DNA of 64,000 nt from Branchiostoma lanceolatum (Eukaryota; Chordata; Leptocardii; Amphioxiformes; Branchiostomatidae). Shown here in pieces: positions 2,482 through 62,909 of the stretch (its first letter is position 1; each line of letters opens with the position of its first letter). The stretch is from positions 8,458,734 to 8,522,733 of the forward strand of contig NC_089738.1 of NCBI RefSeq assembly GCF_035083965.1, written 5' to 3'. Below the pieces are notes generated by a model. That model was not told the DNA's origin, ran no database searches, and saw nothing but the letters and a program-made list of their open reading frames with translations. The position numbers were made by a program, and so were the translations under genes.

Positions 2482-5400
2482 CTATAGCATTTGACAAAAC
2501 AATAACGCCATTGCAAATCATTTGCCAGAAGGGCAAGAAAAAACAAAGAGACAAGAAATAGTGTACACAACATCACAGTACCAACATCTACTTACAAAAT
2601 TCCACTAGGGTACATAATTCCGCCACCCTGAAAAGATACGTCCAAACAAATCTCCATCCCAACGTCCCCCAGTATAATGCAGTCGTACTCCAATAAGCTG
2701 TGCATACCTGGGGGGTGCTGCACTAGAGATCTCTCAAACCCTCTGTTTTTCAAAGTGGCGAATTTATGTAACCCGGCGGATTAATGTTAACGGAGGTTAC
2801 ATGCAAAGTCAAAGACAGACAGTGGAAAATGAAATAAGGTTACAAGGCGTCTGTCAAGTTCAAAGTTTGGTATCGGTTGATTGTTTTGCTTGACTTTGGC
2901 TTTGAAGGCAGTGACAATGAACGGATGGTTACAGTGACACTGACATACTGAAACATTCTACTTTGCCCCCACTCCTTGAAACGTTTTTTGATACTGCAGT
3001 AGTACTTCTGATTTTTGTATTTAACGTTCTGAACATGCCATGGTCATGATTTTTTCGTCTACGCAATCCTAGGACAGATTTCAATACTTGGAGTACCCAA
3101 AATTCAATCGACGTGACCTGACATTAACCGTCATTACCAGCGTCAGTCAACTACTACATTAGTATTCACACCACGATAGTGTGATGTCACCCAAGATTAA
3201 CCGCTTTGTACCGATCCTTTATTTTACCACACCTTGCCTTCTACACACTGGATTTGAAACAGTAAACTGTAACCTTGTAATTTTCGCTCGTAACACCGAC
3301 TGATCATAATATTTTCTGTCTGGCAAAACCATAGCTGCAATTTTTATAAACTTACATAGCTTATCATATGTGTAAGTCACTTGAACGCATTGGCCTGAAA
3401 GAGTCCAACCCCTACCCCATTTGTAATGACACCGCGTATGTAATAACCAAAGGCCAAAGTTGAATTGACACCTGGATAGGCTATTGCTTTGAAAACAAAC
3501 AGAAGCAAACTGTAACCAATGGGCGTCTCTTGATAAAGAGAAGATATTAGAGGATATAAATTGATGCATTTAAAGTGTTATAAACAAAAAAGAAGAAGTC
3601 GCATTTTAGATCTATAGACACACAAAAAAGCATGTGAATGTACTCTCCAAGCAGAGGTTGGTGGAGAAGATTGTGATATTTTCCCAACGTTGGTGAAGAG
3701 TGCCGACAGAAAACGTGGCGTATGATAAAAAGGTCCTCAATTTTCTCCACCAACATCTGCTTTAGAGTATGTAAATCGTTGTTGTGGCGTACGCGTCGAT
3801 TGTCACGTTTGGCATATAGAGCGACATTAATGGTTCAGTGTACAATTATATCAAAGGGCACGTACAGTTGGCACGAACACATTGCAGACTAATTTTCAGC
3901 ATACCTATTGCCTATTGTTGAAAGTTAGGTCAGAATAAAAAGATAATGTTTTCATTGAGTGGGAGGTGGTAGAAATACAAGCATAACTGTTTGATTCAAT
4001 ATATCAACAAGGTCACATACCAGGGGAACCAAAATCAACCTTGACCTGTGTCTTTCCAACAGCTACCCACATGCTAAAATATCGTTACGATCAATCCAGA
4101 GGTTTTAAGGTATGGTGACCACAAATAGCTGGAAACACAGACAGGCAGACAAACAGACAAACAAACCGACAGACACACAGACCGACACAGATAGACACAG
4201 ACATTAACAGATGAGCGAACAGACACACTAAAAATAGGTTTTCATTGAGGTAGAAATAAAGACTCACAATTTGTTTGTTATCACGTGGCGGTTGTCCTTG
4301 TTCCTGGCCCTCCCCAGCAGACGGTGTGACGGAGGCCGTTACGTCGGGACATGCCGGCGGCGCCACTAGGCTCGCCTTGGCCCTAGACGGCACTGCGTCC
4401 GCCGGTCTTTCTGGTTTCTGCCCTGACGGTCCGAATGTCTCAAGCGTCTCTTCTTCTTCATCCGTTGTTTGAACTTTCACTTGCTGCTGATTCTTGAGCA
4501 ATGGGTCAGTTTTGATCAATGGCTCTTGTGGTTTCACCTCGCATTCTAACTTATCGATAGTTTGGAACTCTGGCAGAGGCTTCGATTCCAGTGAACTTTT
4601 CCTCATGACCTTCACCTTCGTAGGTGAGGGGTCTTGAGGGACAACCGTTGCCTTTGCTTTTATTTGAAAGGGCTGGACAGTTTCTTCAACCAGTTTATCT
4701 TCTCCTTCTACAAAGGAGACGGCAGGTTGTGAACCAGAAGGAACTGTAGCCGATGCTTCTACATCTTGGCAGTGAAATGGGGGTTTTGCCCCTACGATGG
4801 TTTCTTCCTTTCTATAAGAAATTGTAGGTTGTGACTGTGAATCTGTTCCTGAAGACAGTTTCGTGGTGGCTTTTACTTCAGGAGGGTGGATTGGAGGCAC
4901 CACGCTTGCCTTTGGTTTGACCTGCGCATCATCTTCGGGCATCTGTGGTTTTTCAGGCGTCTGACACGTCTCTTCTTCTCCCTCGGTCTCCAAGGCTCTG
5001 ACCTGATGTTGATTCTTCTTGAAGACGTCTTGACTTATCCTTGACTCTGGTGGTTCGACGTGGCACTCCTCTTTTTCCACAGGAGGAAGATCTATTGGTA
5101 TTGGTGCTTCTTCTGAAGACGTTCGACGGATCTTGACCTTGGATTGAGGAGGTGGTGGTGTGACGAGGATGGCTTTTGCCTGCGATGGAATCGTGTCTGG
5201 AACTGTGCTTACTTCTTCAGTCTGAGTTTCAAGGGTTCCCTCTTTAGCATTATCTTCAGTACCAATAGCCTCGTCCCAGCTCCTTTTATGAGGGCTGCTG
5301 GGGTCTTCGGTAGGTTTGTCTTCGTCCTTAGCAAAAACGTCATATCTGTTATGTTTATTTTCTTCCCTTTCACTAGGCTTAAGCTTGTCTTCGACCTTAG

Positions 5401-6682
5401 CACAATCGCCAACTCTGTCGTCTTTATCTTCTTGCCCTTTAGTAGGTTTAACTTCGACCATAGCACCAACCCCATCTCTGTTATCTTTGTTTTCTTCGCT
5501 TTCAGTTGGTCTGTCTTCCTCCTTAGCACCATCGCCAACTTCGTCATCTTTGTCGGTTGTCTTTGAACTGTCTTCCATTTCTTTACTCTGCGGAGCTAGG
5601 GTTCCTTCTTTAGCATTGTCGTCGGTTCCAATGGCCTCGTTCCAGCTACGTTTATGAGGAGTACTGGGGTATTTTGTTTCTTCTCCTTTAGCAGGTTTGT
5701 CTTCCTCCTTAGCACGAACATCATCTCTGACACCTACATTTGAACTGTCTTCGGCTTGACTTTCTTGACCGGATGTCTTTGAAACTACAACATATCCTTC
5801 ACTGATACTTTCGGTCATGGAAGTTGTCATTCCTAGCGGCATTTCAGCTGAGATAGCTCCTTTGGGCCTGTCGTCCTTCGTAGTAGTAGTACTAGCTACA
5901 GGGGCAGGTTGTGTTGAAAAACCACGTTGCGTTATACCAGAATGTCGAACTGTCTGTGGAGGAGGAACGTCGGCTGATCTGCTCTTCTGTGCTTCTCGTG
6001 GTTCAAATGATGGTGTATTTAGTGATTTGGAATAGGCAGAGGGCGCATGTTTATCTGGCGTGCCAACTCTATGTGCTGGAGTAGAAGACCTGATGAAATT
6101 GCCATATCTTCCCCGCTTCATTTCTTCCATCTCTCCCTGAACAAGAACGAAGCCCCCGTCCGTTCTACCCCCCTGACCAGCCTGTGGTGTCCCTATCCTG
6201 GTGTCAGGGGTGCTTCTCATTGGCGAGGCTGTGCGTCTACTTGGTTGGTAAACAGAACGGCCTGGCGTGGCGGGGAAGACATCCCTCCCTGTTGTTGTTC
6301 TGTAAAGTCCTTGCCCGCTGGCCATGCCTGTTGCTGGTGACCGCCCCCTCCCAAGGCCGCCATGTTGTTTATCTCTCCACGATCCCGTGACGGAGGGGAC
6401 GGAGGCTCCAGCGACGCCACCGGTAGCACCCCAACGTCCTCCCGACGGCCGTATCTCCCGTGGCACGGTACCGGGCGTAGGAGTTCTCTGTGGCGATTCG
6501 TATGCCGGCGTCGCTGACGCTCCATAACGTGTTGTGTGCGTCGCAGTTGAATACCTCTGGCTGCCGAGAGCGGCCCTTGCCCCAAGTCCCCTGTCTTCGG
6601 TCCTACCTTGATCTCTCCCTTGTCTCTCCGAGTCTTTCACCACGTAGCGAATCTTTTTGCTTCCCTTGTTCTGGCGAATCAT
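1..6682 (-). CDS. Giant repeat-rich disordered protein, 3' end beyond window
   Basis: I do not recognise this gene. Two exons join in phase 0: exon 1 is 6682-4268 (805 codons, donor GTGAGT) and exon 2 starts at 2481 after a TATAG acceptor and stays open to base 1 (827 codons). The visible product is at least 1,632 residues and has no stop in the window. The start is the ATG at 6682 (context GTCACCATGA), giving MIRQNKGSKKIRYVV; in-frame upstream Met codons lie in sequence that looks like 5' UTR. The N-terminus is basic and Arg/Ser/Thr-Pro rich, then come acidic Lys/Glu repeats, a proline decapeptide array and 121-residue repeats. There is no signal peptide, convincing membrane segment or folded domain that I can name. 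A structural or scaffold role is only a guess. Confidence 0.85.
1590..2250 (-). repeat. 30-bp array coding YPPGRAPDAP decapeptides
   Basis: About 21 imperfect 30-nt units encode YPPG(R/T/P)APDAP-like decapeptides on the minus strand, with occasional two-codon expansions to YPPPPG. The array lies inside exon 2 of the giant repeat protein and keeps its frame throughout. This composition predicts an extended, polyproline-II-like segment. Confidence 0.9.
3641..3769. mobile_element. Short inverted-repeat element (CTCCAAGCAGA family)
   Basis: The ends are inverted copies, TACTCTCCAAGCAGAGGTTG on the left and the complement of a diverged copy on the right ending at 3769. The arms are about 33 bp and include GGTGGAGAA. 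The size and absence of coding fit a miniature inverted-repeat element (MITE). Confidence 0.7.
4010..4215 (-). repeat. Dispersed repeat shared with 38098-38260
   Basis: The minus strand here shares GGTCAAGGTTGATTTTGG and the surrounding GGTGACC, GTGGGTAG and CTGTCTG-rich blocks with the plus strand near 38100-38260. It is non-coding and ends in a CAGACA-rich simple stretch. The repeat class is unknown. Confidence 0.55.
4268..6682 (-). CDS. Exon 1 of the giant repeat protein
   Basis: This 805-codon exon has three layers. Residues 1 to about 300 are basic and low in complexity, with many Arg-Thr/Ser-Pro sites. Residues of about 340-480 carry a motif containing PHKRSW(N/D)EAIGT twice (near 5640 and 5270), flanking about four acidic repeats of roughly 23 residues with AKxEDKP and EExKxNR cores. 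Residues of about 495-790 hold two diverged copies of a ~170-residue unit, beginning near 5190 and 4664; each has a basic KVK(I/V)(R/M)R-type stretch with SS, then a KNQ(H/Q)QV motif and an EEEET-type acidic patch. The exon ends in DNKQI and a GTGAGT donor. Confidence 0.85.
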
Positions 6683-6723
6683 GGTGACAATACAGACCAA
6701 GTACACGACCAAAAACCCTGTTA

Positions 6724-6730
6724 TTTTATA
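6724..6730 (-). promoter_or_regulatory. Possible TATA box of the giant repeat gene
   Basis: TATAAAA on the minus strand lies 42-48 bp upstream of the proposed ATG at 6682. It would place transcription start close to that ATG, with a very short 5' UTR. This rests on motif and spacing only. Confidence 0.25.
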
Positions 6731-7894
6731 CACAAAGACACAGCCATGGACGAGACGTTGAACAGACAGTACGTGTTTCCAACATGGGCGGACCTTGTAA
6801 TAAAGGGACCGTCTGACAATGTATGAGTAAGTTGTTTGTTCACGTGGAAAATGTGCGACACGCCTGCGGAAAAGATGGCGGCATGTATTCTTCAAATCTA
6901 CTCAGGAAGATGTCAACTTGTGAACTGTCAATAATTTTGCATGCTTCAAAACAAGATAGTTCACCTGATATCAATCCATAGATATTTGTATGTATCATTG
7001 ACATATCAATTATTATACAAACTATCCATCGTTACAATAATAGACCGCGTTTAAAATAGTAACTGTATCAAACTAGTAATATTCCAAATATCAAAGTTTG
7101 TCTTTTTGCTTTCTTATTGTTCTTGAAAGCGGATGAAAACTATGTTCCTACATTGTATGTGTACAGTCGGAACATCAGTATGTGCTAAGAATAGAGAAGA
7201 TGTAATGTGTAGAAAACAGGTTGTTCGAGTGCATAGCTTGCAGAGTTTACACATATGCTTATTTGCTGGCCTTGTTCCAAGGCGACAGCATGCACGTTGT
7301 TTACCTTCTTCTGTATTTCAAGACCTTTGAGTATTTCCTAAAGAAGATGTAGATGTTATTGAAGAATCTGACTTTTAATTATGAATACCTTTACCTACAA
7401 CGACAGGTCTCTCAAATTCCTATAGCTTATGATAATATCAATATTGGCTAGAATATGTAGCAACCTATTCTGTAATATTACTACATAACTATGAAAAATA
7501 TGCTTTGGGGTCGAATTTTCATAGAATACAGGCGTTGTGGTTGTATCTATCAGCAATAGGTAAAACCAGTATGGATAGCCGGTACGCGAGTGTGGTCACG
7601 TACGACGTTGGCTCTCCCCATATATTATTGTCAAATCATTTGTAAAACACAACGCCCCCTAGGGAAATCTTCAGTCAGCTATCTATACTTATAAGTAGGT
7701 CTTAGACAAGATGATACAATCATATGTCAGCTACACGTATGTATTGTGGTATTAATATTGTTTTGTTAACAATGTGTCGTCGTCCTCAATTGAAATTAAG
7801 TGGTGAACCCTCAATTGCAAGGACGAATTGCTAATTTGAGGATAAGTTCGTTGAACCGTCCAGGGGTTGATCTTGGTGATATGTGCTGAGCTGG

Positions 7895-10103: not shown

Positions 10104-10700
10104 CAAACGTTATAATCCACTATTATGATCTAGTAAAAGTCTTCATCATCAACAATTACACTCATTTAAAACGTTACAATCCTCTATTATGATCTGGTAA
10201 ACATTTTCATCATCAAAAATTATAATCTTTTCAAACGTTGTAATTCTCTATTATGATCATCAAAAAGTACCATAATTCAAAACGATTCAATCTTCTATTA
10301 TGATCTGGTTTAACTTTTCACCATCAACAATAATTACAATCATTCAAAACGTTACAACCCTCTATTATGATCTGGTAAAGCTTGTTATCATCAACAATTG
10401 ACATAATTTTAAACGTCATAATCCTCTATCATGACCTGGTAAAAATGTCATAACAAATAATAACAATCATTTCAAACGCTACAAACCTATATTATGATCT
10501 GGCTAAGATTTTCATACAATTAAAATTTACCATCATTTCAACGTTACAATTCTCTAGATCTATACACTAGTATCATGGTCTGGTAAAAATTTTCATCATC
10601 AAAGATTTCAATCATTTAAAACCAGTTAAAGGCCTCTGTTTTGATTTGGCAAAATTTTGCATCATCAAAAATTCAAGTTCAAACGTTACAATCCTCTGGC
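10104..10700 (-). repeat. ~60-67-bp minisatellite overlapping the end of the hyaluronan synthase gene
   Basis: About nine diverged units share CAAACGTTACAATCCTCT, TATTATGATCTGG and TTTTCATCATCAA blocks in plus-strand orientation. The unit nearest the gene supplies the last codons and the stop of the synthase. Confidence 0.85.
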
Positions 10701-12493
10701 TGGCTCTGTGCGGGCGGCATGTGATAGGTATCTGGAGGGCAGTTCACTGCCTTCCGTAGAACACGACGTTTTGGACGGAGTTCCGTGCATTTGCGTAACC
10801 TGCTCCACAGTATGGACAACACGTCTATCGGACCACTATACGATATCTTCCACTTGGAGAGCACCAGCATTACGAACCAGTAAACTGCGAGAACACCGAA
10901 CCCAATGCTGAGATACAAGATCTTGGTTTTGTTTAAATCTACCCAAGACTCCATCGCAACCGTGTACGCAACTCCTCCGAAAACGACCAAAGCCCAAGTG
11001 ATTAAAGGTACAATCGGCATGAAGTTTGTCACGATCTTCTTCCTTCCGCTGGTTCCCCACCCGGTTTTGTTGATGGTTAGGATTGCCCAAAATTTGATGG
11101 GAACCAGGCTGGTCATGTAGAGGAACGAGTACATGGAGGTGTACATCATAACAGCATCCCCGCGCAAGAAGCTAGCGTAGATGGACTTAAGGATCCCGAC
11201 TATCTGTATGACCAGAAGCGCGAGGATGATGTTCCAGAGGACGCCGCTGTAAAAGAGGCGGACTACAGTGATGGTGACCAACAAAGGGAAAGTTGTTGTC
11301 ACCACGGCTTCGTACGCCATCCACAGGTGATGCTTGTGGAACCACATGGCGTTGTACAACAGTTCGCGAAAGTACGACTTTGTCCAGCGGGTCTGCTGGT
11401 TGAGCCAGCGGAGATACTGCGCGGGAGTCTCGGTGTACGCGAAGGAGCGGACCGTGTATCTTGTGCCGTAGCCGAGGCTGAGGATTCGATTCGTGAGGTG
11501 GCGGTCGTCGCCGAAGGTGCACCGGGTTCCGAGGAAGGTTTGTTTGTACCAATCGTCGACGAAGCCTTGGAGAAGATCGTTGCGATACAGACCGAGAGGC
11601 CCGCTGATGCAGCCAACACAGTTGAAGTAGGACTGACAGGCGCGCTCGATGTTGAAGGCCATCCAGTAGCGTAGACTACTGAGGAAGGAGATCCACGAGT
11701 CCGAAGGATTCCAGATTCGCAGCTCGCCTCCTACAGCTCCAATGGACTCGTCTGCATCCAGAATCTTCGCCATCTCCCTCGTGCATTGTGGGTCTAACAT
11801 GGTGTCTGAGTCACAGACCTGGATATAGTCCACGGTGTTTCCCAGAGCTTTAAACGCCGTGTACATGACCTCCCTCTTCCCTCCCCACTTCTGCATCACA
11901 CAAACGTAACGGTTGTTCTGTATCGTCTCCTCCAAAGCTCTATTCGTGCTGTGTACTACGTTTGGACCCCCACTTTTCTCAGTCTTTACTTCAGAACTTG
12001 GTTTGCCCAAGTTTGTCAGCTTTAACTGGACTTTAAGAGGGACCTTTACGTGATAGTTCTGTTGACTGACACACGTTTCTGCCTCCTCGCCAAAAACTCC
12101 CATAAATATCTCCCTCATGTAGAGATCATCCTTCTTATTCCCGTCTATAACCATAATGACCTTGAGATCCGGGTAGTCAATGTCGCGTGCGGATTCAAGA
12201 CACTTGCGCAGAAGGAACGGGTCTTCTTGATATGCTGAGATGCACAAAGCGACTTTCTTGTTCTTACAGTCGGGCAGATTCTCCGTTCTACTCCTTCGAT
12301 TCTCAAGAAGAGCGAAGACGCTTTGCATGATGAGATGGAAGAACAAGATGGCGCCGTACAGCCCGAATGACAGGTAACCGTCGGCGGTGTAGATAAAGCG
12401 GAGACCGTAGGCGTACGCCACGATCAGCCCACCTGAGAGAAGTACACAGAACCATGTAGTCAGGATGATGCGGGCTACCTGCTGGCACTGCAT
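10679..12493 (-). CDS. HAS: Hyaluronan synthase, single coding exon, 604 aa
   Basis: This is a membrane glycosyltransferase family 2 enzyme that polymerises UDP-glucuronate and UDP-N-acetylglucosamine into hyaluronan and exports it at the plasma membrane. Visible signatures are VIDGN near residue 115, CDSDTMLD (DxD) at about 227-234, ISGPLG near 296, GDDRHLT near 328, the QQTRW acceptor/processivity motif near 366 and WGTSGRK near 479. Two membrane helices precede the catalytic region and a cluster follows it. The start is MQCQQVAR at 12493, because a good acceptor (TTTGCAG) ends exactly before this ATG and the residues align with the start of vertebrate HAS2; an ATG 36 bp upstream would lie in the intron. 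A 5' non-coding exon is therefore implied. At 604 aa it exceeds the ~550 of vertebrate HAS2, with extra residues around 140-195 and a longer tail. Paralogue assignment to HAS1, 2 or 3 is not justified. Confidence 0.95.
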   Translation of the reverse strand: MQCQQVARIILTTWFCVLLSGGLIVAYAYGLRFIYTADGYLSFGLYGAILFFHLIMQSVFALLENRRSRTENLPDCKNKKVALCISAYQEDPFLLRKCLESARDIDYPDLKVIMVIDGNKKDDLYMREIFMGVFGEEAETCVSQQNYHVKVPLKVQLKLTNLGKPSSEVKTEKSGGPNVVHSTNRALEETIQNNRYVCVMQKWGGKREVMYTAFKALGNTVDYIQVCDSDTMLDPQCTREMAKILDADESIGAVGGELRIWNPSDSWISFLSSLRYWMAFNIERACQSYFNCVGCISGPLGLYRNDLLQGFVDDWYKQTFLGTRCTFGDDRHLTNRILSLGYGTRYTVRSFAYTETPAQYLRWLNQQTRWTKSYFRELLYNAMWFHKHHLWMAYEAVVTTTFPLLVTITVVRLFYSGVLWNIILALLVIQIVGILKSIYASFLRGDAVMMYTSMYSFLYMTSLVPIKFWAILTINKTGWGTSGRKKIVTNFMPIVPLITWALVVFGGVAYTVAMESWVDLNKTKILYLSIGFGVLAVYWFVMLVLSKWKISYSGPIDVLSILWSRLRKCTELRPKRRVLRKAVNCPPDTYHMPPAQSQPEDCNV

Positions 12494-12732
12494 CTGCAAA
12501 TGGTACAAAGAAAAACAGTTTCCCATCAAGAAGATGCACTATAGAACTATTGGTGCCTAAGGTTAGTTGTCTGAAAGATGAGGTGTTTTTATACAGGGAA
12601 GGCCATGGACATAAATGATAGTGAGATGGTAAAACTGAACGAATACGTCAACATGATGACACAATATGATACTCTCTCATATCTAAGATATATTTTTCAA
12701 CGTAATCAGCTTCAAAACATATTACTCTTATT

Positions 12733-34900: not shown

Positions 34901-37900
34901 CACCATAGTACACTGCAGTCCTTTTCTAAACAAAAGCTTAAACATTTTGAGGCATGATAAAAAAAAAAAATACATTGTATACAAACAAGTAAAATACAAT
35001 ATCATTGATTGAACAGAGAAATGCATAAAATGCATGATTAACAAAGCTTAAGAGAGTGATAAACTAAAAATGAATAATTTCAGAAACCATGACTATTCTT
35101 TTTGTTCCTCTCAACACAAACAAATCTAAGTACTTGTTGTAAGATTATGATGATCAAAAAATGATGAATGATAAAGCATGTTGAATGCAAAATACCTTAT
35201 TTTTGCAAGGCTTTCCAACACAGAGTAGACTACCCCAGCTTTCAGCCACCAACCAGTTCCGTGCCTTCTGGAGGAACTGTGTGACCTCACCACTGTGTAT
35301 CTCCTTCAGAACTGCTGCTATCTGATTTATCAGAAAGGGGCATGCGACGGGGGGAAAATGGGGAAAAAAGCCGCCTTCTTTAGTTTGCTACTCTCAAAAT
35401 ACGCATGAGAAATTGGCATGTTGAGAGAGACCGAGAGAGAAAGTAAACTACTTGAGGAGGAACAGTGAAGGAAATCACTGAGCCAGTATCCTACTGAGTG
35501 CCAAACGAATTTCATCAATAGAAAACAAATCTTTTTTAAACTTTGTGTGTTTTGTTGTCTTTTTAGTCAAACATGTACATGAACGTTTTGCATGATAGTC
35601 AAGGGTAACACAAATCAAAGTTAGGATGCAGAAAGGCTGCCAACGTGCCACAGTCCAGTGAGATACTCGCTTAATGGAGACCTTAAACAAACCTTCTTAA
35701 TGACTGCAGAACAGGCAGGGTTGAAGGCATCATCACCCCTCTTGGTGCAGCCCTCCCTGGCCACAGGCAGGGACAGCAGCTCTGTGATGTGGTCACTTCC
35801 GCTCTTCATCAACAAGTCAAGGCACGACAGGAAGGTGGAGATGCTGGAAGGATTGATAAATAATCTAACTTAAACATTAAAAAAGGTAGTCCTATAGCTT
35901 TAGGGCAGTGGGTTGTTATCCACTGTGTCTAGGGCACGGAAGGGGAAGGCAGAGCCCAACCTTATCCTTTCACTGCCTTTTAGCATCCCAACCAAATTCA
36001 GTTACCCATTTTTACACCTGGGTAGAGTGAGAAAAGCATGTTAAGTGCCTTTCCAAAGGACAAAACATTGGTGGCATCGCTGGCATGTTAGGGGATTGAA
36101 ACCCAGGACCTCTGTATTCTGGGCCAAACACCCTAATTGTTACGCAAACACGATGGCACAAGGACTTTAACAGTGTGTGGGTACTTACTTTGAACAATAC
36201 ATATGGGAAACTATGAAAAGAGGACACACAAAATCAAGAGCACATTCTGCCTTGTGACATATATTCTGTTGGATGCAATTCATAAGTGCAATCAAGAAGC
36301 CAAAACTGAAGAAAGTGTGAGCCTATTCTTGTATACATGTGTTTTGGGCATGTATATGCGTTTTGGGCATATGTTGTAGTTTGTAATGCAGGGTTTATAT
36401 CTTAAAGGTTTCACTCACTTTTTGATGTCATTGATGTAAGAAACAAGGCAAGAGTCCTTCTTGAGTAACCATTCTTCAGGTCTGTAAAGAAACGGATATG
36501 AAATAGCAAACATGAATAATGCATTTAGGAAAACAGTATTATCTAGCCAATCATCCTGTAAGCTCGGTAAATTCTATGAGCTACTGGTGTAATCAACAAG
36601 AAAGGATAGGCCAAAATTGGGCTGGCCAATCAGAACCAAGGACAAATCACATGTAGGAAAGGGACAACCAACAAGCACCAAGGACAAAATATTGGATGGC
36701 CAATGAGCCCAAAGGACATGTCATCGGTAGACATGGACAACCAATCAGAACCAATGACAGCTCACATACGAACATATATGATCAGCACCAAGGACATGGA
36801 CAGTAAATCAGTCCCAAGGACTGCTACATGCAAACATGGAAAGCAGATCGGCACTAAGGAAAGCTCATGTGCAGACACGGACAGCCAATTGGCACCAAGG
36901 CCAGTCACATGCAGGCATGGACGGCAGATCAGCACAAAGGACAGTCACATACAGACATGGATGGCAGATCAGCACCAAGGACAGCTCATGCGCAGACATG
37001 GACAGGAAATCAGCACAAAGGCCAGTCACATGCAGGCATGGACGGCAGATCAGCACCAAGGACATCTCACATACAGATATGGATAGCAGATCAGCACCAA
37101 GGACAGTCACATGCAGACATGGACAGTAAATCGGCACTATGGACCAATCAACACATGCAACCATGGTTAGCCAATCAGCACTAAGGACAGACACATGCAG
37201 ATGTGGACAGCAAATCAGCACCAAGGACAGTCACATGCAGACATGTACAGTAAATCAGCACTATGGACCGATCAACACATGCAACCATGATTAGCCAATC
37301 AGCACCAAGGACAGACACATGCAGATATGGACAGCAGATCAGCACCAAGGACAGTCACATGCAGACATGTACAGTAAATCAGCACTATGGACCGATCAAC
37401 ACATGCAACCATGATTAGCCAATCAGCACCAAGGACAGACACATGCAGATATGGACAGCAGATCTGCACAAAGGACAGTCACATGCAGACATGGACAGTA
37501 AATCAGCACTATGGACCAATCAACACATGCAACCATGATAAGCAAAACAGCACCAAGGACAGACACATACAGATATGGACAGCAGATCAGCACCAAGGAC
37601 AGTCACATGCAGACGTGGACCGTAAATGAGCACTATGGACCGATCAACACATGCAACCATGATAAGCGAAACAGCACCAAGGACAGACACTTACAGATAT
37701 GGACAGCAGATCAGCACCAAGGACAGTCACATGCAGACATGGACAGTAAATCAGCACTATGGACCGATCAACACATACTACCATGATAAGCGAAACAGCA
37801 CCAAGGACAGACACATGCAGACATGGACGGCAGATTGGAACCAAGGGTTGCTCACAGACATGCAGACATCAGCTGAAATGTATATAAGCATTTTGGCTTA

Positions 37901-56130: not shown

Positions 56131-59100
56131 CTAAAGCTCAGTATGCACTTCAGTATCATCGACTACATTAAGGACACCAATATTGTCTTCACGTTCCTTC
56201 GTCTTCTCTTGATATTCCTCGTCCATCTCAGGAGTCATCTCTGGTTTAATCCGGATGATCCAGTTCTCCAGGGCGTACTCTATCTTCCTAACTGTCAGGT
56301 CCTGGACCACGTCTTCATCATGATCCTGACCCTCAACCAACCTGTCAAATATCTGTGCACAAATGGCAAACATTAATGACTGGCAAGTGTCATGACTGGA
56401 TATTTTTGAAAGTTTATAATCATGGATTTCTTTATCATACGTTCATCAATGGCTAAATGAGTGAGTTCATGAGCGAGTTACTTCTTGAGTCAGTGAGTTA
56501 ATGAGTGAGTGAGCAAGGGATAGCTAGGAATGCAAGTGAATAAATTAATGATAAACTTGTTTGATATGCATATTACACCACATAACATTGGTTGATATAA
56601 CTATCACATGACTGTTATATAACAAAATTTTCATCCTACGACCCAAAAGCAGTTATCATATCACACTCACCTCTGTTCCAAACTTTTCACTACCCCAAAG
56701 TTCGGTCGTGTAGGCATGGATAAAGTCAGACCTGGTCAACTCTCCATCCTTCTTAGCCAGTTTCACAATTGTGCTCCTACAAGATCACGAGATGGTAAAG
56801 GTCAAGATACATACATGATCATACATATGTCAGGATACGCCAAAAATAGTTACTCAAGCAACTGGATAAAATTTTGAAACAGTCACTGACGAAAGATAGC
56901 GGATGCTATCTGAAACGCCTGACTAGTACTGTTTCAAAATTCTATCCAGTTGCTTGAGTAACTATTTTTGGCGTATCCTATTACCTGGATGTCTAACCTT
57001 CATCAACATATGTCAGGATATAGATTGTTATCAGGTAGATTCAGTTGCTGGTAGACTGACCCCTAGGGTCGTGTGGCGTAATGGCAGGGTTTATGGTCCA
57101 GAACCCAGCGGTCCCGGGTTCGAATCCCCTGGCGCCACCGATGTTGTGCCCTTGGGAAAAGGTACTTTACACAACTTTCCTCATTTCACCCTAGTGTAAA
57201 AATGGGTATATTATTTATGGGTCCCAACACCAGCAATAGCTGCCTGTGTCCCACGTGTATTGCAATTATGAATTGTATTGCACAGTTGCAAAATTACAGA
57301 AAATCCCGATCGGGGTCGGTATATTTAAAGTCACCATATATAAATGATTTTTTTGTAATTAGATGTGAAGATCTTGGCACATTGACGCACCAAATCCGTA
57401 GTGTGCTTTGGGCTCACATTTTGACATATTAGCCACAGTGGCTCGGTGGGCGTCACTGCAACGTCAGGGAAGATCGTGTAAAGTGCAAGGACACAACGTC
57501 GGGGCATTGTGAATATTCAACCCGGGATCTATTGGTTCTGAGTCCAAAGCTCTAACCACTACGCCACGCCACACCGACGTCAATGGATTGACTTAGATTG
57601 AACTATTGTAAAATTCTATACATAAAAATTCTACTGGTTCGAACCAATTTTTCACTGGCCTGCACATTTATGAACCTGCTCAATTTGTTATCGTACACGT
57701 GTTGTACCGTGTATGTGACGAGGGGTTAATCTACATTCCCTATTGTGGTTTTATGCAATAATATCCATATTTCGTCACTATCATCAACAAGTCAGTAAGA
57801 ATATAGAAAGTGAAAGTTACTGAATTCTATGCCTGAGTTCAAACTTACATGATGTCGTGGGCGTATATGTAGGAGTATTCATACAGCTCAGTGTTGGAAG
57901 GCTCCTGGTTTTCAAATTCCAGTGTGAAGACTCGAAGTGTATCCCAATCCAAGGCTTCAACGTCGTCAGAGTCAATGTAGCCTTTAGAGTTCACATCCAA
58001 AGCCGCAAACGCCTGCAAAGATTTTTTCAGGACTTGAATATCACATATTATATTCTTTCCGGTATGTACAGGCACTATTCTACATAGCTTATTATTACAA
58101 AATAGATAATTGATTGATTGGTTGATTGATTGATTGATTGATTTTTCCATGTGTAATTTTGCTTCTGAAGATGTCAACTGCTTATGCTAGTGTCACATTT
58201 CCAATCCGAGGCCCGGCCGGGCAGTCTTTGGGAACGAAAAGTGTGATATAAAAGACAACAAAAATACAAAACCTACCCAAAATTATTTAAAAGCATAGCT
58301 TGTGCAAATTTATTGACATGCACTTTGATTTTTCGTTTCCGCAAACAGCCCGGTCGGGCCCCGGTTAGGAAATGTGACCCTAGCATTAGTCAGAGTACCT
58401 TTTAATGCAGATATATGTTGAGAAACTACCGCTACTCACCCTTTCTGCCTTCATCATTAAAACGTCATCATCATATTCAGGCATTTGCTGTGCAGAAGAA
58501 GACAAATGACACATTAAGAAAAAAAAACAGGCCTTCGTGTGGAGTAACGTTTAGTGTTTGTCCCAGAACGAAAGGTCAGAGATCACCTGACCTACCCTTA
58601 TGTTGTGCTCTTGGAAAAGACAAGTAAAAAATAAAAAGAAAGACATAATTCCTCTTCGAAATGTCAGTTCCTAAAATTGCTGCACACCTGAGTACAGTAA
58701 ATGGTACAAAATCCTAGATGTAATATTTCTGGAAGAAACTAGACTAAGTATGATAGAGAGAACGACACCTCGAAATTAGCATGTAACGTTACCATGCCCA
58801 TGTGTATTCGCAAACCCTGACGAGTTCCACATTTACCTAAATGTATACATAGAAAATTAGTAAGTTTCCATACACTTACCAACTTAAGGTCGTTAAAGAG
58901 GTCATCTTTAGTCAGTTTTCCAGTTCCGCTACCCTCTTCCCGATCCGTTATCTCTCGCAGATGGCTCCTGATAGACTCCTCCAAATCAGCATGCCCCATG
59001 GTCATATTCCCATACCCTGCCCAGTTCCACATCACCTAGTGTTTGGATACAGTTTTGTGGTAAATCGTTGTGTTATACTAAATCAATGATCAAGACTGCA

Positions 59101-60965
59101 AGAAGATACCTTTTATGAACTTGAAGCATTGGAAAGCACTTGTTCGTGAGTGAAATGTTAGAATAGAAGTTGGAGACATTCTGGAAAAAAGTCAAGGGTG
59201 CAATAGGATGAGTAATATTGAAAAGGATTGTAACTTAGAATACTAGTACTGTAAATGCAGAAATGTTCGCAAGGATTTAATTTCGAGGTAGGGGGGAAAA
59301 TGGAGGGTTTGCGGTGGTTTTGAGTTCGTGTTTGAAATAATAGTAGTGCTTAAGTCACACAATGGAATGGCTTTTTGTGGTGATTTTAAAGTCCTCGCTG
59401 AAGAGTTAACCGCAAAAACCGTGAACATGAAACCACCGCGAACATTTCTGCATTTACTGTATCAGATTCGGTATCACTTAAAGCACAAAGCACGTGTATA
59501 ACAGAATCCTGTAAACGTCATCAACACAGTCATGTCTTAGCTAACACATAAATCTAACCAGCGTAACCAGAGTACTTACCATTATACTGCAATGTAAACA
59601 TGTATGTATTCATGAGACTCTACGCAGGAAAAATAAAAACAAAACAAAGAAACAAACCTCGAGTTCGCTGAGGGGTGTGTACTCCACCCTCTGCGTGTCA
59701 CAGTCGGAGTCATCAAACTCCTCCAGCCTGGCAAACAGGATAGCCACAGCGAGGTTCACATCTCCTACTGACTCCACTTGGTGCCAGTAACCTGCAATCA
59801 CACAGAGACATTGTTTGAGACTATGTTCATGTACATTTAGCCTGGCAAACAGGATAGCCACAGCGAGGTTCACATCTCCTACTGACTCCACTTGGTGCCA
59901 GTAACCTGCGACCACACACAGAGACATTGTTTGAGACTATGTTCATGTAGTCTCCAAGCAGACCCAACGGTTGCAAAGACCGTATCCAACTGGCAGAAGG
60001 AGTTTTTTTTTTTTTTTTTTGCAATCCGACGGTCCCTGGCAACTTCTCTGGCTGACTGGAGCTTCTCTGGCTAGCTTGTACGATTTTGGCACCGTGGAGA
60101 TCTGCTTGGAGATTAATCTCCATGTAGCTTTTGCAGTCATCGTCACTGTGATGTAATTCAGCATCCACTATATCAGTTGCAAAGTCATTGTTGTGGGTAA
60201 TATCATTTTGAGAGCGTAGCAAAAATTGAAAACAGTTTTTAGCACTCGTATATAGTTTAATCGGGTTGTTTAGTCAAACTATGGCCGGGCTTCAATACTC
60301 TTCAGGTAGGTAGGTAAAGTTTTAACACTCTTTAGGTAAAGTAGCTGTTTTATTTAGGTAGGTAAGGCTTTAAAACTCTTTAGGTAGGTAGGTAGGTAGG
60401 GCTTTACAACGTTACTAGTAAGGTACTTGGTAGGTAGGGCTTCGACACTCTTTAGGTAACGTTAGGTACATGAAAATATATAGGTATAGGGATTTTAACA
60501 TGCCTTATGTAGGTAGGTAGGGCTTTACAACGTGACTTGTTATGATAGGTACTAGGTAGGTAGAGCTTTAACACTCTTTGGGTAAGGTGCACATAGGTAG
60601 AGCTCGAGCCTTAAAGACTGTTCATGAGTGTTGTTGACACTTACTCTTGGGTAGATACAGGCAGTCCCCTGCGTTGATGGTGAATTTGGACCAGTGCACT
60701 TTGGCAATGTTGGGGTGTTTCAGTAGATCAACTTTGTGCACATTAACTTCTGAGTAACCACCAACCTCTCGTGATGGCTCCCAGGCCTAAATGATCAACA
60801 TTGACAATAATCATTTTTAAAAAATGTAGTTAAGTATACGTACAATGTGATCAAAATTCTAAAAAGGTTAGACTGGGGATAGAGTGTTGTTTGGGGTTTG
60901 TCTGTGTCAAGTACATGTATGTGTGCGTCTGTGTGTCTGTCTGTCTCTAGCTCTCTCGCTGTGTG

Positions 60966-61043
<78 letters not shown>

Positions 61044-62909
61044 GTGTGTGTGTGGAAACATACCTAATTCTGCATTGACATACGATGAATGTATTGTGCT
61101 ATTGGAGATCGCTTTGATTTTCATTTTGAAAACACTGCTTGCCTTGTGCAGAAGAGGTTCATACTTGCGCTCGATCAGTTTCCAGTGTTTGGTGCCGTTG
61201 TACAGACAGTTCATGGAGTTGAAGGCATCCTTGTGTAGAACACTGCTGCCACCGTTAGAGCTCATCCACAAATCAATCTGAGTTAAAATCACATTAGAAG
61301 ATAAGATAAATACTTCAAGCAGGCGTCGAATGATTTTCCTTTGTTTTACTTTTACTTTATATAAGGCTCAATCTAGTTCAAAGAAACAAAGAATGCATAT
61401 CTTCGCGTAGCCTCTCCTTGGTTAAATCATAATGTCCACACAAAGTAGTGCCAAGATTCTGTTTTACTAACAATAACTGTCGTTCTATTTGCTTACACAG
61501 TTTGATCGTTTCGCTGAGTCTAAGACACTTGAAATTAAATTATGTCCTTTATCTTCTGTACATTACAAATGTTGATCATATAATATCATACCAGTAACCC
61601 AGTCACTGCCAGCCCATCTTAAACAAATGCATTGAACGAATATTTCTGACAACTTAGAAATGTCCTTACAAGACCCTTAGGGAGTGTCCCTGTGGTGTAG
61701 TGGTCTTCGCTTCTGGTACTTGCCACATCTGGTTCAAATTACTTGGACCAGAAGGCCCGGGTTCAAGCCCTGGGTTAGGACACTTCTGGACAAGAGGCGC
61801 ATTGAGTCATACCAAAGACTATATAAAAATGGTACATACTTCTGAAACAGTATGGAAGTTAAACACACTCCACTGTCAGTGGACTAGCCCCCTGCTGCAG
61901 TGATTACACCACAGTGTGGCCCAGGGCTATGAAACGGGGATGGGCACCGCCCTATACATCAATTATGGTGTGGGAGGATTTTAACTAACTTTAACAAAAC
62001 CCTTACCTCTACTAGATTCTTGCGGAAGCTGCCACAGGTGAGACAAGGTTGTACCAGGACTTCGTGGTACATGTCGGTGGGTAACTGTGACACTAGGTAC
62101 GCATCCTTGTTCTGATAGGTCTCGATGAAGTGTTCAATGGTGTCTCGTCCTATTATTCCCTTAGCACCAATGGGGCTCGGTCCATTCTTTTCCCTCTTGC
62201 CTTCTAGACGAACCTTTGAGCAAATCCGAAATATGACGTCAACAGATTTTGTTTATATCTGTATGCAAATTGCACGTCGTTCATGCATACATCGATTACA
62301 TCAATGACGACGACCATGTAAGAAATATCAGCTTATCCCTGTAGATAAAGGTCATTCAAATATTTAAAAAAAAGCACCTTTAAAAACGCCGGCAAGAAGA
62401 AAATCATGTGAGGCTTAGTTGACTCATTTACCTCCAGTTTTCCATAGTTGTCCCTCAGGTATTCCTCTGTCCACAAAGTGAAGGCAGGGCTGTTTTTGGC
62501 GGCACCTCTCAGTATCACAGCCTTCTCATGTTTCACATACTTGTCCCAGAACTCCTACAATTCAACAGAAAATATATCACCATCAATAATCATTCGTTAT
62601 CTTCAAGCACAGTCAGTGCATTCAACCTCTACTGATGATGTTTTCATTTATAAAGTCTGTGTATCATTGTGTTTTAGGCAGGACTTCAATAAAAGAGACA
62701 TGGCATAGTGTCACTATGATAGATTAAGATATGTATTTTTTTAAACCTACCCGTGGATGTGGGATGGTGTGCAGCTCATCTATGGGGACATCAGGAGGTC
62801 GATGGCCCCCCAGGGGTTGCAGGTGCCCCACGGGAAGGGCGGAGTCACCAGTGACAGAGTGTGATCCACACACAGCCAGGAGGAGGAGAAACTTCCAAAC
62901 TGGCGCCAT
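56131..62909 (-). CDS. Secretory-pathway JmjC dioxygenase with EF-hand-like segments, 531 aa
   Basis: Eleven exons join in phase: 62909-62751, 62554-62432, 62213-62007, 61277-61143, 60786-60645, 59791-59658, 59035-58880, 58487-58440, 58012-57849, 56776-56671, 56352-56131. Residues 1-21 are a signal peptide (MAPVWKFLLLLAVCGSHSVTG). The cupin/JmjC fold covers about 54-290: the iron ligands fit H178 and D180 in LHKDAF and H259 in SYWHQVES. K193 lies 15 residues after H178, the spacing of the 2-oxoglutarate lysine in human FIH. Residues 374-385 (DVNSKGYIDSDD) form an EF-hand loop; EF-like segments occur near 330-345 (DREEGSGTGKLTKDDL) and 435 (KKDGELTRSDF). The C-terminus HTEL resembles a KDEL-type ER-retrieval signal. 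It probably hydroxylates a protein in the ER lumen; the substrate is unknown. Intron 4 appears to use a GC donor. Confidence 0.9.
56831..57000. mobile_element. MITE upstream of JmjC exon 10
   Basis: Arms contain AGGATACGCCAAAAATAG and TTACTCAAGCAACTGGATA, inverted at the right end. It belongs to the same family as 32637-32831 and starts about 55 bp upstream of the exon 10 acceptor. Confidence 0.8.
57062..57200 (+). mobile_element. tRNA-derived SINE, family A, well preserved
   Basis: The head has GTGTGGCGTAATGGCAGG (box A) and CGGGTTCGAATCCCC (box B), followed by GATGTTGTGCCCTTGGGAAA and TTTACACAACTTTCCTCA. The anticodon arm does not fold as a normal tRNA, so it was called a SINE rather than a tRNA gene. 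Confidence 0.7.
57428..57585 (-). mobile_element. tRNA-derived SINE, family A, minus orientation
   Basis: The complement begins TGGCGTAGTGGTTAGAGC and has CCCGGGTTGAATATTC, then CGACGTTGTGTCCTTGCAC and TTTACACGATCTTCCC. It lies tail to tail with the copy at 57062-57200. Confidence 0.65.
59247..59461. mobile_element. MITE with TACTGTAAATGCAGAAATG ends
   Basis: TACTGTAAATGCAGAAATGT on the left is inverted at the right end (CATTTCTGCATTTACTGTA). The interior holds GCGGTGGTTTTGAG and AAACCACCGCGAAC. It sits in intron 6 of the JmjC gene. Confidence 0.8.
59658..59791 (-). CDS. Exon 6 of the JmjC gene, with the distal iron-binding histidine
   Basis: The exon follows an ATTGCAG acceptor and encodes SYWHQVESVGDVNLAVAILF, then an acidic segment and SELE before GTTTGT. 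Its first ~67 bp, plus the acceptor and ~45 bp of upstream intron, are repeated immediately upstream at 59839-59950. Confidence 0.85.
59725..59950 (-). repeat. ~114-bp tandem duplication of intron end plus start of exon 6
   Basis: The blocks 59725-59838 and 59839-59950 are nearly identical, including the acceptor and the GYWHQVESVGDVNLAVA codons. The period is 114-116 bp. The upstream copy has an intact acceptor but no donor of its own. A frame stays open through both copies. Confidence 0.9.
59950..60114. mobile_element. MITE of the CTCCAAGCAGA family, in JmjC intron 5
   Basis: GTCTCCAAGCAGA on the left pairs with TCTGCTTGGAGA on the right. A long T run at 60004-60021 lies inside. It abuts the duplicated partial exon. 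Confidence 0.75.
60300..60610 (+). repeat. GGTAGGTA-rich ~60-70-bp tandem repeat
   Basis: Units with GGTAGGTAGGGCTTTA followed by CACTCTTTAGGTA recur irregularly. They are intronic, between JmjC exons 5 and 6, just downstream of exon 5's donor. Confidence 0.75.
60964..61055 (+). repeat. (TG)n microsatellite
   Basis: A long TG run with two C interruptions lies in the intron between JmjC exons 4 and 5. Open frames across it on both strands are repeat artefacts. Confidence 0.95.
61680..62005 (+). mobile_element. tRNA-derived SINE, family B, next to JmjC exon 3
   Basis: The head has TGTGGTGTAGTGGTC and CCCGGGTTCAAGCCC; the body has GGACTAGCCCCCTGC and ends in TTTAACTAACTTTAAC. ACAAGACCCTTA at the left and ACAAAACCCTTA at the right look like a target-site duplication. 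The right copy runs into the 5' splice site of exon 3 (exon end 62007). Confidence 0.75.

Follow-up and report, generated by a model that had tools for sequence, protein, structure and literature searches.

A JmjC and EF-hand gene of Branchiostoma lanceolatum with predicted signals for entry into and retention in the endoplasmic reticulum

Described JmjC and EF-hand dioxygenases

Proteins that join a JmjC domain to an EF hand have been described in planarians as "highly regenerative species-specific JmjC genes" (HRJDs), with KDM8 as their closest paralog (PMC11295675); the defining study is Cao et al. 2019, as cited in later work (PMC11295675, PMC11077316). The published species list places Branchiostoma floridae among the animals with an HRJD, and zebrafish, human, mouse, C. 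elegans, and Drosophila among those without (PMC11295675). Low-regenerative species (arthropods, nematodes, and vertebrates) are reported to give no BLASTP match to the whole HRJD sequence, with Chelicerata keeping HRJD, and gene trees cluster HRJDs apart from the paralogs of low-regenerative species (PMC11077316). Across animals, HRJDs are reported to track high regenerative ability, and what they do at the molecular level is described as unknown (PMC11295675, PMC11077316); RNAi against planarian HRJDs has effects (PMC11077316). In S2 cells, wing discs, and midguts, HRJDs were reported to be cytoplasmic and not nuclear, as seen with 3xFLAG fused at the N-terminus; besides the UAS-FLAG lines there are lines called UAS-HRJDa/b, whose description mentions no tag (PMC11295675). 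Expression in the fly gut affects junction proteins non-cell-autonomously; the authors' own suggestion is that HRJDs act cell-autonomously in proliferative signaling, possibly on epigenetic targets (PMC11295675). The term "signal peptide" is absent from the main text of both PMC11295675 and PMC11077316, as is "endoplasmic" from the main text of the former.

Two further systems offer partial parallels. JMJD8 is an N-glycosylated JmjC protein of the endoplasmic reticulum (ER) lumen with a signal peptide; it is described as JmjC domain-only, clusters with JMJD7, HSPBAP1, JMJD5, TYW5, and HIF1AN, and has a metal site (H179, H181, H248) in which a His replaces Asp, conserved across the JMJD8 species compared (PMC5684140, PMC9820096). 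JMJD8 has been reported as an AKT1 lysine demethylase (PMC5684140, PMC9820096), and residence of a JmjC protein in the ER thus does not by itself imply hydroxylation. P4H-TM pairs a 2-oxoglutarate (2OG) dioxygenase domain in the ER lumen with an EF domain that binds calcium; its authors describe it as the only enzyme of its family with EF-hand motifs, and the role of the EF domain as not fully understood (PMC7948501).

Literature searches identified no work joining JmjC, EF-hand, endoplasmic reticulum, and signal peptide, and none for Cupin_8 with EF-hand (PMC11295675 spells "EF hand" without the hyphen). A search for JmjC with EF-hand showed no such protein by title among the matches listed, which did not include the HRJD papers.

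Gene structure and catalytic domain

The window analyzed here is a stretch of 64,000 nucleotides of B. lanceolatum contig NC_089738.1. Independent exon assembly recovered a gene of 10 exons and 9 introns on the minus strand, running from 62909 to 56131, whose spliced frame of 1548 nt (515 aa and a stop) is open throughout (Table 1); the original prediction's observation of the gene is confirmed. All nine introns end in AG and the phases fit throughout. Eight of the nine donors are GT, seven of them in common contexts and that of exon 6 in a weaker one (gtttgt), while the exon 4 donor is GC, in the context AAG/gcaagc. The start ATG has A at −3 and G at +4, and an in-frame TAA starts 9 bases 5' of it.

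Table 1. Positions in the window of the exons, catalytic codons, and predicted signals of the JmjC and EF-hand gene
Feature	Position	Strand	Basis
Exon 1: start codon, signal peptide (predicted), linker (aa 1-53)	62751..62909	-	assembly; upstream in-frame TAA
Predicted signal peptide, aa 1-21, V at −3, G at −1	62847..62909	-	sequence
Exon 2: JmjC/Cupin_8 domain start	62432..62554	-	assembly, Pfam
Exon 3: JmjC domain	62007..62213	-	assembly, Pfam
Exon 4: HxD metal motif, 2OG lysine, GC donor	61143..61277	-	assembly, structure alignment
Codons H178-K179-D180, Fe(II) ligands	61227..61235	-	H178/D180 align with H160/D162 of JMJD5 chain 6f4t_A
Codon K193, 2-oxoglutarate lysine	61188..61190	-	aligns with K175 of 6f4t_A
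Exon 5: JmjC domain	60645..60786	-	assembly
Partial tandem duplicate of exon 6 within intron 5, carrying its own acceptor	59792..59905	-	96% identity over 84 nt
Exon 6: YWHQV with H259, JmjC domain end	59658..59791	-	assembly, structure alignment
Codon H259, third Fe(II) ligand	59781..59783	-	aligns with H239 of 6f4t_A
Exon 7: linker with sequon N310; EF-like loop at aa 334-345, non-canonical by eye	58880..59035	-	
Exon 8: EF-hand	57849..58012	-	assembly, Pfam
EF-hand loop DVNSKGYIDSDD, aa 358-369	57962..57997	-	canonical spacing; PF13405
Exon 9: EF-like loop at aa 413-424, degenerate by eye, inside PF13499 match	56671..56776	-	
Exon 10: acidic tail and stop	56131..56352	-	assembly
C-terminal HTEL, ER retrieval signal	56134..56145	-	assembly; HTEL function in CES2, PMC11845761

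The partial copy of exon 6 sits 114 bases upstream of that exon, and use of its acceptor would set the exon start at 59905. Reading from this point stays open and in frame into the real exon 6, adding 38 residues that repeat the H259 strand; one copy of this strand is all that the JmjC fold requires, and we therefore place the usual start of exon 6 at 59791. The near-identity of the partial copy might be read as the mark of a decaying locus, with a degraded or mis-assembled gene, but the ten exons are all open and in phase, the complete copy of exon 6 is intact, and the frame survives even if the upstream acceptor is used; we consider decay highly improbable. By tblastn, the gene occurs only once in the window: 10 of the 11 matches fall on the exons of the model, one of these extending over the exon 6 copy, and the eleventh is a chance match (E 6.5).

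The introns also contain repeats. An inverted repeat in intron 8 (56832-56979; 52-nt arms, 98% complementary, 44-nt spacer) is possibly a small hairpin mobile element, and tRNA-derived SINE-like stretches with box-B-like GGTTCGAATCC/GGTTCAAGCCC were recognized by eye at 57065-57140 and 57430-57580 (intron 8) and at 61680-61800 (intron 3). ARAGORN identified no tRNA in the window, and Rfam no match at the gathering threshold, these stretches included. Elsewhere, an uninterrupted 619-aa stop-to-stop ORF at 10682-12538 (minus strand) matches hyaluronan synthase 1 (8smm; 637 bits, E 2.9e-190, ORF residues 23-560). This HAS1-like gene looks intronless; vertebrate HAS genes contain introns. Its presence near a probable HRJD-type gene would suit a non-vertebrate chordate such as a lancelet. 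A second uninterrupted ORF, of 936 aa (4094-6901, minus strand), has no Pfam match at E up to 0.01. Tandem arrays occur at 1-968 (363-bp unit, 2.7 copies) and 1591-2215 (30-bp unit, 20.2 copies), both overlapping a long, proline-rich minus-strand ORF (827 aa) that runs off the edge of the window, and a complex array with periods of 40, 84, 124, and 248 bp lies at 36793-37846.

Pfam places Cupin_8 (PF13621) at residues 52-275 of the protein with 108.8 bits against a cut-off of 27.4 (5.5e-31). JmjC_2 (PF08007) also exceeds its cut-off (26.1 bits against 22), and JmjC (PF02373) falls below its own (17.5 bits against 24). The best matches among solved structures are JMJD5/KDM8, followed by GH14974p, JMJD7, C2orf60 (which we take to be TYW5), and FIH. 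Of the 221 positions aligned with JMJD5 chain 6f4t_A, 53 are identical (24%). H178, D180, K193, and H259 all align with their JMJD5 counterparts, which means that both the metal triad and the lysine for 2-oxoglutarate are conserved; the H178-x-D180...H259 triad and K193 were correctly placed in the original prediction, residue numbers included. With a domain above the curated cut-off, the HxD...H triad, and the 2OG lysine, the protein has the features of a JmjC (Cupin_8) Fe(II)/2OG oxygenase. S184 aligns with N166 of 6f4t_A, an Asn in JMJD5, and the cofactor pocket is therefore not identical to that of JMJD5. JMJD5/KDM8 is not known to have ER signals or an EF hand. It also differs in being said to be nuclear (PMC11295675).

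NCBIfam gave no family match at E up to 1. Scans of prokaryotic and viral rather than animal collections by DNA pattern, which with a single-protein query reach close relatives only, returned 19 pattern matches in prokaryote genomes and 3 in viral contigs, none of them confirmed.

The signal peptide, ER lumen, and N-glycosylation reported for JMJD8, together with its clustering near JMJD5, JMJD7, and TYW5, make it conceivable that the gene is a lineage-specific JMJD8 with an acquired EF-hand tail. The metal site speaks for another origin: D180 completes an HxD motif here, as opposed to the HxH of JMJD8, which is described as conserved and is compared here by that description (PMC5684140, PMC9820096). 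We set this explanation aside as improbable.

Predicted ER signals and the EF-hand region

The N-terminus, MAPVWKFLLLLAVCGSHSVTG, has a short hydrophobic core followed by small residues suited to cleavage before D22, the site that we assume from the −3,−1 rule. Its hydropathy maximum (over 9 residues) is 2.9 within residues 2-26. Among the 408 ATG ORFs of at least 30 aa in the window, this gene counted, 14 reach that N-terminal hydropathy and 33 pass a crude signal-peptide filter, so the hydrophobic N-terminus alone is moderate evidence. The opposite end carries the C-terminal tetrapeptide of a KDEL-receptor client, HTEL, which is the only [KHR]xEL end among 2086 stop-terminated ORFs of at least 20 aa in the window. 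HTEL falls outside the strict KDEL/HDEL set. Two N-glycosylation sequons are present (N190 and N310). In human carboxylesterase 2 (CES2), an otherwise unrelated enzyme, the same C-terminal HTEL is an ER retrieval sequence, crucial for localization in the ER lumen; retention by HXEL need not be absolute, because the mouse relative mCes2a may occur in blood as well (PMC11845761). The original prediction placed the protein in the ER lumen; both of the signals it named are present as sequence features, and the location they predict is probable.

An alternative is that the protein works in the cytosol or nucleus on histones or signaling proteins, as a JmjC enzyme resembling KDM8/JMJD5 whose hydrophobic N-terminus and HTEL are incidental. 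JMJD5/KDM8 is indeed the closest solved relative, FLAG-tagged planarian HRJDs were reported as cytoplasmic, and their authors weigh histone or kinase-gene targets (PMC11295675). Yet the published tag was placed ahead of the HRJD N-terminus, where it would be expected to mask a signal peptide and block ER entry if planarian HRJDs have one. Chance co-occurrence in one protein of such an N-terminus (14/408) and such a tail (1/2086), with this gene counted in both, is also unlikely. These data make a cytosolic or nuclear enzyme unlikely, though less so than a JMJD8 derivative, and we favor residence in the ER lumen. By the same reasoning, the phenotypes of the UAS-HRJDa/b lines, which are described as untagged and which include the non-cell-autonomous effect on junction proteins, could reflect an ER form.

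The region following the catalytic domain (residues 281-515) is acidic, with 58 Asp/Glu against 22 Lys/Arg, including an acidic stretch at 452-467. By EF-hand ligand rules, the loop DVNSKGYIDSDD has Asp, Asn, Asp, and Asp at positions 1, 3, 9, and 12 (D358, N360, D366, and D369, all retained), Gly at 6, and Lys at 5. EF-hand_6 (PF13405), whose cut-off is 25 bits, reaches 23.0 for the full-length protein but 26.9 and 28.5 for two shorter pieces, the C-terminal 216 residues and one of 153 residues; it thus passes only in scans restricted to the C-terminal part. The pair model PF13499 (residues 347-429) stays below its cut-off of 30 in all three scans (21.1, 23.2, and 25.0 bits), as do PF00036 and PF13202 below theirs in the whole protein and both C-terminal pieces. 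By eye, the EF-like loops at 334-345 and 413-424 are degenerate. The EF-hands of the original prediction therefore come down to one clear loop with a degenerate partner, and the plural was generous. Solved structures gave four matches to the C-terminal 216 residues, none significant (E 0.37 to 1.2), with centrin and plastin among them (E 1.1 and 1.2).

Calcium binding by this region is plausible from its sequence; calcium control of the enzyme would be a guess by analogy with P4H-TM. Within the ER-lumenal reading, and compatible with it, the EF-hand domain may instead be structural or substrate-binding, with calcium absent from it or constant. That there is a single canonically spaced loop, with Lys at position 5 and a pair model below cut-off, leans this way; the retained ligands lean the other way, as does P4H-TM, which binds calcium with 23 uM affinity and whose near-UV CD in the tryptophan region is strongly shifted by calcium (PMC7948501). 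We regard an enzyme without calcium control as a real possibility, somewhat short of an even chance.

Proposed function and relation to HRJDs

Set against the published description, the gene is probably of HRJD type, by architecture and by nearest solved relative. JmjC and EF hand are its sole domains (EF-hand_6 passing in C-terminal pieces only), JMJD5/KDM8 is nearest, as judged among solved structures only, and Branchiostoma is among the genera listed for the family (PMC11295675). Its ER signals go beyond that description, in which HRJDs are reported as cytoplasmic with an N-terminal tag and the main text does not mention a signal peptide (PMC11295675). The original prediction knew of no vertebrate protein with this combination, which agrees with print as far as JmjC and EF hand are concerned, zebrafish, mouse, and human being listed without HRJDs (PMC11295675). 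It also allowed that a known family might already have the architecture: HRJDs are such a family for JmjC with EF hand, and not, as described, for the ER signals. The claim of a new combination is thus largely answered by a known, poorly understood family. A calcium-linked hydroxylase, offered as new, is likewise preceded, by P4H-TM, a 2OG oxygenase of the ER whose EF domain binds calcium (PMC7948501), and by the JmjC and EF-hand pairing of HRJDs.

We propose, with a probability of roughly 0.62, that the product of this gene is a JMJD5-like protein hydroxylase of HRJD type, dependent on Fe(II) and 2-oxoglutarate, that resides in the ER lumen and has a calcium-binding EF-hand domain. The signal peptide would bring the protein into the ER, and binding of HTEL by the KDEL receptor would keep it there. 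In the lumen, secretory or membrane proteins would be the enzyme's substrates, hydroxylated on their side chains with the help of Fe(II) (held by H178, D180, and H259), 2-oxoglutarate (bound by K193), and O2; hydroxylation is chosen as the reaction because the nearest relatives include JMJD5, JMJD7, and FIH. The acidic C-terminal EF-hand domain would bind calcium, at least at loop 358-369, and may stabilize the enzyme or shape the substrate cleft; calcium binding and regulation are the least certain part of the proposal. The analysis shows the gene model, the JmjC domain, its catalytic residues, and the two signals as features of the sequence, whereas membership in the family, residence in the ER, activity, and the class of substrate are inferred. 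A secretory-pathway enzyme suits the HRJD data, because the junction effects in the fly gut are non-cell-autonomous and HRJDs are not nuclear.

Several points count against this proposal. HRJDs are cytoplasmic in print, though with an N-terminal 3xFLAG, and their authors suggest a cell-autonomous, possibly epigenetic role (PMC11295675). In the protein itself, we count against it the EF-hand pair model below its cut-off, the single model likewise in the whole protein, the Lys at 5 and Asp at 12 of the loop, the C-terminal part with a best structure match of E 0.37, S184 in place of the JMJD5 Asn, the 33 of 408 ORFs passing the signal-peptide filter, and a retrieval signal that is neither KDEL nor HDEL and may not be absolute.

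Extended to the family, the proposal would make HRJDs ER-lumenal, calcium-responsive hydroxylases of secreted or junction proteins, not of chromatin, with the cytoplasmic location caused by a tag masking the signal peptide; we hold this tentatively, as more doubtful than the reading of the gene itself. The ER-type signals are the new part, and may surprise specialists. At the level of sequence, HRJDs and this gene qualify the description of P4H-TM as the only 2OG dioxygenase with EF-hand motifs (PMC7948501). Entry and retention signals in a likely HRJD move the hypothesis from histone demethylation to the modification of secretory proteins, and action of HRJDs in the secretory pathway would make their non-cell-autonomous effects in the fly gut easier to understand.
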